Assembly: GCF_030453185.1 (NCBI RefSeq)
Contig: NZ_JAKDKW010000010.1
Location: 1 to 51,011 of the forward strand
From: Yaniella sp.
Lineage (GTDB): Bacteria > Actinomycetota > Actinomycetes > Actinomycetales > Micrococcaceae
Reading direction: 5' to 3'
DNA: 51,011 bases
The position numbers and the translations under genes were made by a program. Positions 31,956 through 46,158 of this stretch are shown here, one piece after another. Position 1 is the first letter of the stretch. Each line of letters begins with the position of its first letter. Under the pieces are notes generated by a model. It was not told where the DNA came from, did no database searches, and saw only the letters and a list, made by a program, of their open reading frames with translations.

Positions 31956-32067
31956 GACCCGCGCTTGTCCCAATTTGCCATGAGACCTGGTCCTCACCCG
32001 GGGCACCCCACCGCGGAGGAGGGTTGCCGGTCAGTAAGCCGGGGCATTACTACTGACACTCGTGACC
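31956..32067 (-). promoter_or_regulatory. SAM-IV riboswitch
   Basis: Read from 32067 down, the sequence matches the SAM-IV consensus as I recall it: GGTCACGAGTG at the 5' end, GCCCCGGC, CCGGCAACCCTCC, CCGCGGTGGGGTGCC, CCGGGTGAGGACC, and the conserved 3' segment ACAAGCGCGGGTC. SAM-IV aptamers bind S-adenosylmethionine and are known from Actinomycetales upstream of methionine genes. Here it sits 76 bases before metY. No terminator with a T-tract follows, so control is probably translational. Confidence 0.93.
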
Positions 32068-38622: not shown

Positions 38623-40095
38623 TTAGCCGATTTTTTCCAGAATGATTTCGCGGACGCGGCCAGCATCGGCTTGTCCTTTGGTCGCCTTCATAACGGGTCC
38701 AATTAGGGCGCCAACGGCTTGCATGTGACCGCCTTTGATGCGCTCAACGACATCCGGGTTGGCGGCCATCGCCTCGTCCACCGCGGTCGTCAGAGCGCCG
38801 TCGTCAGACACCACGGCTAGTGAGCGTGCTTCGACAACCTCTGTGGGACGTCCTTCGCCGTCGGCCACATAGCCTACCACCTGGCGGGCGATCTTGTCAT
38901 TGATCGTCTTGTCGGCGATCAGACGTTCGATTTCGACCACATCGGCGGGGGTAACACCTAGACCTTCTGGTGAGACGCCCTTTTCATTGGCGATGCGCGC
39001 GATCTCGCCCATCCACCATTTGCGTGCTGCTTCAGCTGTCGCGCCTTCCACGATGGTCGCTTGAATTTCATCGAGTACACCGGCGGCAACGACGTCGCGG
39101 AATTCAGATTCCGAAAACGCCCACTCCTCGCGTAGACGACGGCGGCGTTCTAACGGATTCTCTGGCAGCTCAGCACGTAGGCGCTCAATCCAGGCTTCAT
39201 CAGTAACGATTGGCACCAGGTCTGGGTCAGCGAAATACCGGTAGTCATCGGCATCAGATTTTGGTCGTCCGGACCGAGTAGACCGGGCTTCTTCATCCCA
39301 GTGACGTGTTTCCTGAGTGATAGATTCGCCCGTGTCTAAAGCTTTGGCCTGACGAATGATTTCAGATTCCACGGCAGCCGCGACGGCGCGTGTGGAGTTC
39401 ACGTTTTTGGTCTCTGTGCGGGTACCAAAAGTTTCAGATCCAATCGGCATCACCGAGACATTGGCGTCACAACGGATGTTGCCGCGTTCCATGCGGGCAT
39501 CGGATACGTTCAGTGCTTTGACGATGTCTCGGATGGTGGCCAGGTAAGCACGAGCGAGTTCTGGTGCACGTTCGCCTGCTCCGGTGATGGGGCGCGAGAC
39601 AATTTCTACCAGGGGCACTCCGGCCCGGTTGTAGTCAACCAGCGAGGCTGATGCATCATGGATGCGACCGGTAGAACCCATGTGTGTGAGCTTGCCGGCG
39701 TCTTCTTCGATGTGGGCGCGTTCGATTTCGACACGGAAAATTTCGCCATCGTCGAGTTCCACGTCCACGTAGCCGTCATAAGCGATGGCCGGTTCTAACT
39801 GGGATGTTTGATAGTTCTTGCCCAGGTCCGGGTAGAAATACTGTTTGCGGGCGAAACGAGATTCCGGCGCGATCGTACAGTTCAGTGCCAAACCAAGTTT
39901 GATGCCGTAATCGATACCGGCCTGGTTGATGGTTGGCAGGGTGCCCGGCATTCCCAGGTCCCCTGCGGTCACGTTGGAGTTGGGTTGATCTCCGAACGCG
40001 TTGGTGGCCGTGGAGAACATTTTGGTCGCGGTATTGAGTTCTACGTGAACTTCAAAGCCGAGAACGGGTTCGTAGGTTTGTAATGCGGTTTTCAT
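38623..40095 (-). CDS. gatB: Aspartyl/glutamyl-tRNA(Asn/Gln) amidotransferase subunit B
   Basis: 490-aa subunit that phosphorylates the misacylated Asp/Glu-tRNA carboxylate and then transamidates it with ammonia. The conserved LGFEVHVELNTATKMF (13-28), FARKQYFYPDLGKNYQTSQ, HIEEDAGKLTH, DYNRAGVPLVEIV and RCDANVS blocks are all present, so the kinase/transamidase site looks intact. The helical and YqeY-like C-terminal tail domains run to the end (ALIGPVMKATKGQADAGRVREIILEKIG). The start overlaps gatA (ATGA). It contrasts with the degenerate gatA next door. Confidence 0.95.
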   Translation of the reverse strand: MKTALQTYEPVLGFEVHVELNTATKMFSTATNAFGDQPNSNVTAGDLGMPGTLPTINQAGIDYGIKLGLALNCTIAPESRFARKQYFYPDLGKNYQTSQLEPAIAYDGYVDVELDDGEIFRVEIERAHIEEDAGKLTHMGSTGRIHDASASLVDYNRAGVPLVEIVSRPITGAGERAPELARAYLATIRDIVKALNVSDARMERGNIRCDANVSVMPIGSETFGTRTETKNVNSTRAVAAAVESEIIRQAKALDTGESITQETRHWDEEARSTRSGRPKSDADDYRYFADPDLVPIVTDEAWIERLRAELPENPLERRRRLREEWAFSESEFRDVVAAGVLDEIQATIVEGATAEAARKWWMGEIARIANEKGVSPEGLGVTPADVVEIERLIADKTINDKIARQVVGYVADGEGRPTEVVEARSLAVVSDDGALTTAVDEAMAANPDVVERIKGGHMQAVGALIGPVMKATKGQADAGRVREIILEKIG

Positions 40096-41366
40096 GCTGT
40101 TGCTCCTGCCGTGGTTTCAACGACGGCGCTGATGCGGTAGACCAGTTCGTCTGCATAGGTTGGTGCACAAATGTGTACGCCGGCCACGCTTGCAGCGGGC
40201 AGGCCTGCCAATGAGGCACCGATACCTGCGTTGGTGGATTCGAATTCTTCGCCCTGTTGTATTGCCGCTGGTACGGCAATGGCATCAACGGTGTTAAACG
40301 CGGTGTTGTATTCGTTGATGATGGCTGTGCGGATCTTTTGTGCCGGATAGAAGTGGGAGTGAATGATCCCCGAGGACAGCATGTGTGTCCCGACGATAAT
40401 GCGGCGCTTGGTTTCGTACCCGAATCCGGCACCGCGCGATGCCATGATCACGTCCTGGACCGTGCCGTTGTCCGGAGTAACGCGGTTCCCAAAGCGAATG
40501 CCGTCGAATTTTGCCAGGTTGGCTGAAAATTCTGCGGCCCCGATAATATGGGCTGCCTGAGATGCCTGTGACAGGGTATCCATGGTGATCTCAGTCGTGG
40601 CGATTCCAGCGTCTTGCAGGGTTTTCAAACCGGTCTGATATGTTGCCCAGGATTCGACAGAGACGTTGGCTGGTTGTTCATTCAGCACGCCAACGGTGCT
40701 GCCTGAGATCGCTGAATCAGCGGAAAAGTCCCAGTCGTATTCCACGCTGGTCGGGTCCAATTCGTCTGACCCGACCATGACTTCGTGCAACGCTTTAGCA
40801 TCAGCGGTATTTCGTGCAATCGGCGTGACAGTGTCCATCGAAGAGACGGCTGCAACGAGACCGAAGCGCGAGATCGCACCGTAGGTCGGTTTGACGGCGA
40901 CGACGCCGGTTTCTGCAGCAATTTGACCCGCTGTGCCTGCGGTATCTGACACCACTGCGAAAGGCGCTTGGTGATTGGCTACAGCTTCGTGAGCTCCTGA
41001 GTCTTGTCCCATACCGAATTCGGAAACCCGAGCCTTGGCCAGAATTGGTAAGCCGGCTGCTCGTAGGCGCGCCACAGCGGTGGCTTCATAGGGGGCAACC
41101 CAACCGTCGAGGTAAGCGGATCCGGCAGCAGTTGGCATGTTCTCAGTGACCAACACATCCGACAGGACTACCGGGACACCAGCCAGCGAATGATCATAGT
41201 TGCCGGCATCGACGTCTGCGGCGGCAGCTAGTGCGTCGTCAGCGTTAATGTAAACGAATGCGGTCGAGGCTGCATCCAGGTGGGCTTGTACGAGCTCGAC
41301 GGCCGTTGTTTCACCGGCACGAAGTTTTGCCGCCATTTGGGTGGCAGTCAGTTGTGTGAGATGCAT
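40092..41366 (-). CDS. gatA: GatA-like amidase subunit lacking the catalytic triad
   Basis: 424-aa homologue of GatA, the glutaminase subunit of GatCAB, normally about 480-510 aa. Flanking framework is clearly GatA: LAGVPVVLSD, PILAKARVSEFGMG, VAVKPTYGAISRFGLVA, NLAKFDGIRFGNR and KRRIIVGTHMLSSG. The active site is gone. The catalytic Lys of LKD is Ser69; the GGSSGGSAAA loop with the cis-Ser is deleted (between GQDSGAHEAVA and APFAVVSD); the nucleophile motif DTGGSIRQP reads DTAGTAGQI (141-149). The C-terminal glutamine-pocket segment is also shortened. The frame is open and coupled to gatC (TAATG) and gatB (ATGA), so it is translated as a pseudoenzyme rather than broken by frameshift. Confidence 0.88.
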   Translation of the reverse strand: MHLTQLTATQMAAKLRAGETTAVELVQAHLDAASTAFVYINADDALAAAADVDAGNYDHSLAGVPVVLSDVLVTENMPTAAGSAYLDGWVAPYEATAVARLRAAGLPILAKARVSEFGMGQDSGAHEAVANHQAPFAVVSDTAGTAGQIAAETGVVAVKPTYGAISRFGLVAAVSSMDTVTPIARNTADAKALHEVMVGSDELDPTSVEYDWDFSADSAISGSTVGVLNEQPANVSVESWATYQTGLKTLQDAGIATTEITMDTLSQASQAAHIIGAAEFSANLAKFDGIRFGNRVTPDNGTVQDVIMASRGAGFGYETKRRIIVGTHMLSSGIIHSHFYPAQKIRTAIINEYNTAFNTVDAIAVPAAIQQGEEFESTNAGIGASLAGLPAASVAGVHICAPTYADELVYRISAVVETTAGATA

Positions 41367-41632
41367 TATTCTCCGTCCAGGATTGCGGGAACCATGAATT
41401 GTCCATCTTGGGCTTCTGGGGCTGCTGAGAGCGCCTGCTCGTTGGACAGCTCGTTCGCGACGACGTCAGCGCGGAGCTTGTTGGTGACGGGCAGCGGGTT
41501 AACGGTGACTGGTAGCTGGTCATCTGCGGTCACTGCCAGCGAAGCAATAATCGGGTCGAACTCTGTGATCAGACGTTGACGATCTTCCTCCGTCAGGGCT
41601 ATATGGGCGGTCGCTGCTATGTTGTCAACCAT
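41366..41632 (-). CDS. gatC: Aspartyl/glutamyl-tRNA amidotransferase subunit C
   Basis: 88-aa subunit that wraps around GatA and GatB and stabilises the complex. The C-terminal PLPVTNKLRADVV and ALSAAPEAQDGQFMVPAIL blocks are canonical GatC; the N-terminal helix (ALTEEDRQRLITEFD) is shorter and more divergent than usual. It overlaps the upstream GNAT stop by eight bases and gatA by one (TAATG). Confidence 0.92.
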   Translation of the reverse strand: MVDNIAATAHIALTEEDRQRLITEFDPIIASLAVTADDQLPVTVNPLPVTNKLRADVVANELSNEQALSAAPEAQDGQFMVPAILDGE

Positions 41633-42157
41633 GATTCTCCTTTACTAGATGTCCTAAGTTTAAAGGGTGGACATAGACGAAGAAGGTTTCAAGTCCTTGT
41701 TCGTAGTCCACGATACCGGCGGTGTATAGATTCCAATCTCGGTCTGGTGCACGTTGGAACCCTAAGCTGGTGTACATCGCCTGGGCGGTGGTCATTGAGG
41801 CCATGGTGGTCATGACCACCTGGGAAAGGTCGTTTTTTCGAGCGTAGTCCAGCACGAACTCCACTAGCGCACGGCCAATGCCCTGACCTTGGTAGTCCGG
41901 GTGGACGGCCAACATGCGAAATTCGAGTTCATTGCCGTTGGCAACCTCGATCAATGATGACCCGGGGGTGGCGATATTCACGCTACCGGTTATTTGACCA
42001 TCAACGTCGGCAACGAAAAGCTGTGCTGCACGAGCTTCAATATCCGTCAGTTGTGCAGCGTATGGATCTGAAGCGGCGACGTGTCCAGATTCGACATATG
42101 CTCGATATGTCAGTTCCGCAACGGCGGGATAATCTCGTACCGTAGCAGGTCGGATGG

Positions 42158-42164
<7 letters not shown>
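41625..42164 (-). CDS. GNAT-family N-acetyltransferase
   Basis: 179-aa acetyltransferase. Acetyl-CoA motif A is VHPDYQGQGIGRALVEFVL, preceded by LEFRMLAV, and motif B is MYTSLGFQR. The start is taken as TTG 42164, which has GAAAGAGG upstream and overlaps the IMPase stop (TTGGTAA), giving VTIRPATVRDY, the usual GNAT beginning. The frame upstream to 42254 lies inside the IMPase gene and is rejected. The substrate is unknown. Confidence 0.84.

Positions 42165-46158
<3,994 letters not shown>

Follow-up and report, generated by a model that had tools for sequence, protein, structure and literature searches.

The window analysed here is a stretch of 51,011 nucleotides (positions 1 to 51,011 of contig NZ_JAKDKW010000010.1, assembly GCF_030453185.1, Yaniella sp., Micrococcaceae) from a genome of 2.58 Mb in 156 contigs that is 97.4% complete, and our interest in it lay in a gatCAB operon whose gatA encodes an amidase-signature protein without its catalytic triad, pseudo-GatA. 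In the GatCAB and GatFAB enzymes described in the papers cited below, ammonia is provided by GatA, which releases it from glutamine. With a probability that we put at roughly 0.6, comparison of the sequences argues that the product of this operon, pseudo-GatCAB, would be the working housekeeping tRNA-dependent amidotransferase (AdT) of Yaniella, with a conserved pseudo-glutaminase for its GatA and free ammonia as its nitrogen donor. Most likely the operon has the housekeeping task of making Gln-tRNA(Gln) and Asn-tRNA(Asn), and is not a decaying copy or an assembly error. Its genes, and the positions in gatA on which much of the argument turns, are as follows.

41366..41632, minus strand: gatC, 88 aa (TIGR00135)
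40092..41366, minus strand: pseudo-GatA, 424 aa, amidase-signature protein without the catalytic triad (TIGR00132, Pfam Amidase, alignments)
38623..40095, minus strand: gatB, 490 aa, with kinase/transamidase and tRNA-binding (YqeY) domains (TIGR00133, GatB_N, GatB_Yqey)
41160..41162, minus strand: codon of Ser69, at the position of the catalytic Lys79 (alignment)
40995..41000, minus strand: approximate junction (residues 123/124) of the 23-residue deletion that removed the GGSSGGS loop and cis-Ser154 (alignment)
40989..40991, minus strand: His126, new in 8/8 pseudo-GatAs, Ala in canonical GatA (alignment)
40926..40946, minus strand: DTAGTAG (residues 141-147) in place of DTGGSIR, with Thr145 at the position of the nucleophile Ser178 (alignment)
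40548..40550, minus strand: His273, new in 8/8 pseudo-GatAs, Tyr310 in canonical GatA (alignment)
40353..40355, minus strand: His338, new in 8/8 pseudo-GatAs, Tyr374 in canonical GatA (alignment)
40233..40235, minus strand: codon of Thr378, at the position of Asp425, a ligand of the glutamine amide (alignment)

The residue numbers K79, S154, S178, R358, Y309, Y310 and Y374 were counted from an alignment to Staphylococcus aureus GatA (2df4_A), and Asp425 is presumably the S. aureus GatA number for the remaining ligand. Their roles in the active site were taken from the yeast equivalents K52, S130, S154, R334 and D418 (PMC4027206). The main GatA alignment held eight pseudo-GatAs, five canonical Yaniella GatAs and 20 outgroup GatAs (the outgroup being 20 of the 35 non-Yaniella genomes found), together with three GatA-like amidases, termed C2 and discussed below, which were included in the table of triad and ligand residues and omitted from the alignments used for invariant counts, trees and coordinates. 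One Yaniella genome, G008, contributed its GatA and GatC to the alignments but not its GatB, which is cut.

The first-pass annotation of this DNA, made from the window alone, had proposed that all the catalytic residues of the amidase were gone, and the genus-wide alignment bears this out: K79, S154, S178 and D425 are kept in all 25 canonical GatAs and lost in all eight pseudo-GatAs, K79 being replaced by Ser or Ala, S178 by Thr and D425 by Thr or Ala, while S154 falls within the 23-residue deletion that spans the GGSSGGS loop in every one of the eight. The nucleophile motif that it had read as DTAGTAG is correct for the window, although the final Gly is specific to it, the other seven having DTAGTAR. 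Also as it had described, the C-terminal segment is reduced, giving a length of 423-425 aa in the eight, as against at least 500 in the 25 canonical open reading frames (ORFs). One ligand persists, namely Arg358, which binds the glutamine carboxylate and is retained in 8/8 pseudo-GatAs (Arg322 in the window). Outside the active site the framework is partly preserved, with 99 of the 161 positions that are invariant across the 25 canonical GatAs retained; conversely, the 20 outgroup GatAs share 180 invariant positions, and 62 of these are altered in all eight pseudo-GatAs, 18 of them by deletion, compared with two in the canonical Yaniella proteins.

These losses are reflected in the family scores. 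The best family for the window's GatA is TIGR00132 (gatA), with 264.7 bits, below the cut-off of 481.1, and two other pseudo-GatAs score 255.7 and 271.1 bits, whereas four canonical Yaniella GatAs reach 564.8-579.5 bits. Against Pfam Amidase (PF01425) the window's protein scores 196.5 bits in two stretches, with a gathering cut-off of 27. By these sequence scores pseudo-GatA belongs to the amidase signature family, and it falls outside the TIGR00132 equivalog, that is, the GatA glutaminase subunit.

Its partners have fared differently. The window's GatB, which had looked intact on first inspection and still does, scores 434.8 bits against TIGR00133 (cut-off 314.8) with Pfam GatB_N and GatB_Yqey both present. 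The GatB motifs GFEVHVEL, H(I/L)EEDAGK, DYNRAGVPL, RCDANVS and DYRYF are kept in 8/8 pseudo operons, and pseudo-operon GatB keeps 138 of the 146 positions invariant across 24 canonical GatBs. Seven of 165 outgroup-invariant positions of GatB are altered, with one in canonical Yaniella GatB. GatC passes its model (51.1 bits against TIGR00135, cut-off 47.1), and six of its 23 outgroup-invariant residues are altered in all eight pseudo operons, compared with one in the canonical Yaniella copies; we observed that pseudo-operon GatC has been shortened (88 aa) and has lost otherwise-invariant residues, L8T, L18R, S44V and H45N among them, in step with GatA. Overlaps of TAATG between gatC and gatA and ATGA between gatA and gatB confirm the coupling that had been read from the window. 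GatB, GatC, the locus and orthology together place the product within the GatCAB complexes on sequence grounds, and pseudo-GatCAB is a new variant of GatCAB.

Pseudo-GatA is found once per genome in eight of nine Yaniella genomes, the exception (G008) being 71% complete, and in a search of named genomes the window's protein had a match of 89% identity in Yaniella halotolerans DSM 15476. A sweep of 395 genomes of the family, an even sample of a larger group that covered 32 genera, returned at E 1e-70 only the eight Yaniella pseudo-GatAs and one canonical GatA, in G309; more diverged, independent losses would escape that cut-off. The non-Yaniella G309 was considered as an additional pseudo-GatA and rejected, as it has GGSGGGS and DTGGSIR, and L011, from Hydrogenedentota, was taken as a chance peptide match, with no amidase among its listed ORFs. 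The eight pseudo-GatAs come from eight separate assemblies with many synonymous differences between them (median pS, the proportion of synonymous differences, 0.66), so the identical losses are not an assembly error or chance. The frame is open in 8/8. The ratio of nonsynonymous to synonymous divergence (dN/dS) of pseudo gatA is 0.07-0.157 over 28 pairs, with a median of 0.09, values that are rough because synonymous divergence is high; the gene is under purifying selection.

What these genomes lack also speaks for a working enzyme. The pseudo operon is the only gatCAB found in the window's genome, which has one gatB and no second gatCAB, its five other amidases scoring 173.5-355.4 bits against the TIGR00132 cut-off of 481.1. 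Just one gatB was found in each of the four pseudo-only genomes (G000, G002, G003 and G006), of which G006, the Y. halotolerans assembly, is 100% complete in six contigs. No match above the model cut-off for glnS or asnS, the genes for glutaminyl- and asparaginyl-tRNA synthetases (GlnRS, AsnRS), was found in any of the nine Yaniella genomes, the window's included, while among 14 control genomes the glnS model passed its cut-off in four and the asnS model in seven; the weaker matches to these models in Yaniella are, judging by size and score, probably related synthetases. Cells without GlnRS or AsnRS require AdT for both amino acids. Given the known pathways, a single gatB with no glnS or asnS in the pseudo-only genomes thus implies that the operon is needed to decode Gln and Asn codons, and since no other AdT candidate was found in four genomes, pseudo-GatCAB most likely works, using nitrogen that its own GatA does not cut from glutamine. 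The first-pass annotation had stated beforehand that the absence of a second gatA and of glnS would support a working ammonia-dependent enzyme; with both absent from the window's genome, its suggestion that the pseudo-glutaminase retains a function is supported, and its other suggestion, decay after GlnRS and AsnRS had taken over, is rejected, for neither synthetase was found, the frame is open and dN/dS is low.

How such an enzyme might work can be sketched. GatB, near-unchanged in sequence, would still phosphorylate and then amidate Glu-tRNA(Gln) and Asp-tRNA(Asn), drawing ammonia from the free NH3/NH4+ pool of the cell rather than from the cleavage of glutamine, and free ammonia would be the simplest donor. 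GatA and GatC would be kept as a scaffold for GatB and probably also as the funnel through which ammonia enters the old tunnel; with the GGSSGGS loop deleted and pocket tyrosines replaced by Ala or His, the former glutamine pocket would be opened and given a new lining. The fuller proposal, that the genus depends for most or all of its decoding of Gln and Asn codons on a GatCAB driven obligately by ammonia, in which GatA is a non-catalytic funnel with a histidine-lined pocket, is one to which the sequences lead us to give even odds. Washed-rind cheese and broiler litter are ammonia-rich. Yaniella is mentioned in papers on both. In addition, Enteractinococcus, one of whose species was formerly placed in Yaniella, grows at pH 7-11, and Enteractinococcus helveticum UASWS1574 was isolated during selection for ammonia-tolerant nitrifiers (PMC4966478). 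Habitat thus fits the use of ammonia, but proves nothing.

Rates of evolution were compared in the four species with both operons (G001, G004, G005 and G007), which yield six pairs that are not independent because there are just four species. The nonsynonymous divergence (dN) of the pseudo operon is below that of the canonical one in 6/6 pairs for each of gatA, gatB and gatC. For gatB it is 0.031-0.065 as against 0.059-0.232, two- to fivefold lower in the pseudo operon, and in 6/6 pairs it is lower than that of ligA (0.035-0.124); the two operons differ little in the dN of gatA (0.055-0.172 as against 0.069-0.212). In the GatB tree the pseudo copies form one group (support 100/100) and the canonical Yaniella copies another (99/97), with within-genus end branches of 0.006-0.08 and 0.06-0.33, respectively, and pseudo GatB is nested among the GatBs of the family, with G024 beside it (96/83). 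The GatA tree has a very long pseudo stem, of 2.22 + 1.54 changes per column on either side of the midpoint root.

Several observations weigh against the pseudo operon as an ammonia-driven housekeeping enzyme. Its slower evolution is clear for GatB and GatC, not for GatA: identities of the two GatA types are nearly equal in some pairs (0.752 and 0.753 for G001-G004), within-genus GatA end branches are alike (0.02-0.32 and 0.05-0.24), and invariant GatA columns number 245 of 424 among eight pseudo rows and 272 among five canonical rows, a comparison of unequal row numbers. Four species retain a canonical gatCAB besides the pseudo operon, and the pseudo-only G002 is just 88% complete. Moreover, Arg358 is needless for a pure ammonia funnel, although it may be structural.

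The order ligA-IMPase-GNAT-gatC-gatA-gatB is found also in other Micrococcaceae (e.g., the loci L089, L093 and L097), with extra genes interposed in some loci and PP2C present as well in L089 and L097; among the 20 outgroup loci, the stretch retrieved included ligA in 13. The pseudo operon therefore occupies the ancestral ligA-linked gatCAB locus, the remainder of which lies in the window at:

41625..45429, minus strand: GNAT, IMPase-like and ligA genes, the context of the ancestral gatCAB neighbourhood (order common to other Micrococcaceae)

The canonical gatCAB lies at another locus in G001, G004, G005 and G007, with a partial one in G008; it adjoins the same conserved gene in four of the five (L078, L079, L081, L029) and has a different locus in G004 (L080). 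The ligA tree comprises 21 rows, as ligA lies off seven of the 20 outgroup stretches and G008 lacks the pseudo locus. Pseudo-only species fall in two places in it, G003 in one and the clade G000+G002+G006 in the other, with G004, which has both operons, between them (node 94/93). The simplest reading of these sequences, with moderate support, is that there was probably one early duplication or acquisition, after which the canonical copy was lost two or more times; alternatively, G004, whose copy occupies another locus, may have gained its canonical operon separately. Where the canonical gatCAB persists in Yaniella, its GatB and GatC evolve faster than their pseudo-operon counterparts. Elsewhere in the window are a SAM-IV riboswitch (31956-32067, minus strand, 99.8 bits) and a tRNA gene cut by the contig end (1-55, minus strand).

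That the pseudo operon is a decaying duplicate, a pseudogene or an assembly error is barely credible. The very long GatA stem and the presence of a canonical gatCAB elsewhere in four of nine Yaniella genomes, with a fragment in a fifth, would be expected of decay, but the open frame in 8/8, a dN/dS of about 0.09 and a GatB partner whose dN is below that of ligA in 6/6 pairs would not, and in the four genomes where one operon is missing, it is the canonical copy, leaving the pseudo operon as the sole AdT found. The first-pass annotation had held that a complete second gatCAB elsewhere would make this a decaying copy; such an operon does exist in four congeners, though not in the window's genome, and in those congeners it is the canonical GatB and GatC that evolve faster, the canonical operon having probably been lost repeatedly. 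It is also very unlikely that the complex has taken on some other role while a synthetase or AdT that escaped recognition supplies Gln- and Asn-tRNA: the many genus-specific changes in GatA and GatC would suit a new role, but no glnS or asnS exceeds its cut-off in 9/9 genomes, no second match to the gatB model appears in the four pseudo-only genomes, and GatB keeps its 138 of 146 invariant positions.

More weight attaches to explanations in which the complex works but its ammonia comes from glutamine or another amide after all. GatA itself might have rebuilt an amidase site around Thr145 as nucleophile and the new histidines, and still hydrolyse glutamine. The invariance of Thr145 and DTAGTA in 8/8, the new and invariant His126, His273 and His338, and the kept carboxylate-binding Arg358 speak for such a site; its improbability lies in how much has been lost together (the catalytic Lys, the Asp that binds the amide, and the cis-Ser along with the Gly/Ser-rich loop around it), and we know of no amidase-signature enzyme that works without Lys and cis-Ser. 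Somewhat better placed, yet still unlikely, is a second enzyme, an amidase or glutaminase docked to pseudo-GatCAB or acting nearby, for which the candidate is the GatA-like amidase C2 (G000:C2:23065-24477, L001; also L076 and L077), found in G000, G003 and G006 only (3/9 Yaniella genomes). C2 has an intact Lys-Ser-Ser triad and, at 83-100% identity, is present in three of the four genomes without a canonical gatCAB (the fourth, G002, being 88% complete) and in none of the five with a whole or partial one, its carriers spanning two lineages of the ligA tree. However, alignment places Phe at Arg358 and Leu at Asp425 in 3/3 C2 proteins, so that both glutamine-binding residues are missing; the gene is unlinked to gatC or gatB and in G000 and G006 adjoins a transporter of the AmiS/UreI family, which fits ordinary amide use. 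The G000 protein scores 355.4 bits against TIGR00132, below 481.1 and about equal to its AtzE score of 353.8, C2 was not found in four species that conserve the pseudo operon as well, and relatives at 43-45% identity occur in two of 188 other family genomes searched; the genomes behind this pattern are few. A CitMHS-like transporter also lies beside C2 in G006, and no AmiS/UreI transporter was evident near it among the ORFs of G003. The missing glutamine-binding residues, the lack of linkage and the neighbouring transporter make a role in amide use likelier; as a replacement GatA C2 is weakened by those residues, and we retain it as a rival.

Bacterial GatCABs can use free ammonia as donor. 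The structures 2df4, 3kfu and 3h0l, which we take to be the S. aureus, Thermus thermophilus and Aquifex aeolicus enzymes, share with the Yaniella system the same three genes, a GatB above its cut-off with the kinase/transamidase motifs, and the GatA framework with Arg358, and differ from it in that pseudo-GatA has lost the GGSSGGS loop, some of its C-terminal segment, and Lys79, Ser154, Ser178 and Asp425. Yeast GatFAB accepts NH4Cl as a donor in vitro, and truncation of the N-terminal domain of GatF lowers glutaminase activity and raises NH4Cl-dependent transamidation (PMC4027206). There, as we propose for Yaniella, a disturbed GatA glutaminase site goes with less use of glutamine and more of ammonium, but the yeast case is a laboratory mutant of GatF, and the catalytic residues of GatA are described as conserved (PMC4027206). 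Carbamoyl phosphate synthetase 1 (CPS1) still carries a glutaminase-like domain that no longer works, and its ammonia comes from the surroundings (PMC4655335). The evolutionary step is comparable, in a different enzyme with a different substrate; human CPS1 replaced its catalytic Cys by Ser, whereas pseudo-GatA lost Lys, cis-Ser, Ser and the amide ligand, and the use of ammonia has been demonstrated for CPS1 alone, while for pseudo-GatCAB it is suggested by the missing active site. For NAD synthetase without a glutaminase domain, ammonia is the physiological donor for amidation (PMC3376133), but in that single-domain form the glutaminase is absent, and in Yaniella GatA is kept and conserved. 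No report of a GatCAB with a dead GatA was found in the open-licence PMC literature, as judged from titles and the openings of abstracts.

A GatCAB without a glutaminase site, conserved in all adequately complete Yaniella genomes and the sole enzyme of its kind found in four species, provides a natural test of whether indirect tRNA charging in vivo requires channelled, glutamine-derived ammonia. If pseudo-GatCAB is indeed driven by free ammonia, it would be an evolutionary parallel to CPS1 within the translation machinery, and the fidelity of translation, and with it the accuracy of the proteome, would be tied directly to the ambient ammonia of the environment in which Yaniella lives.

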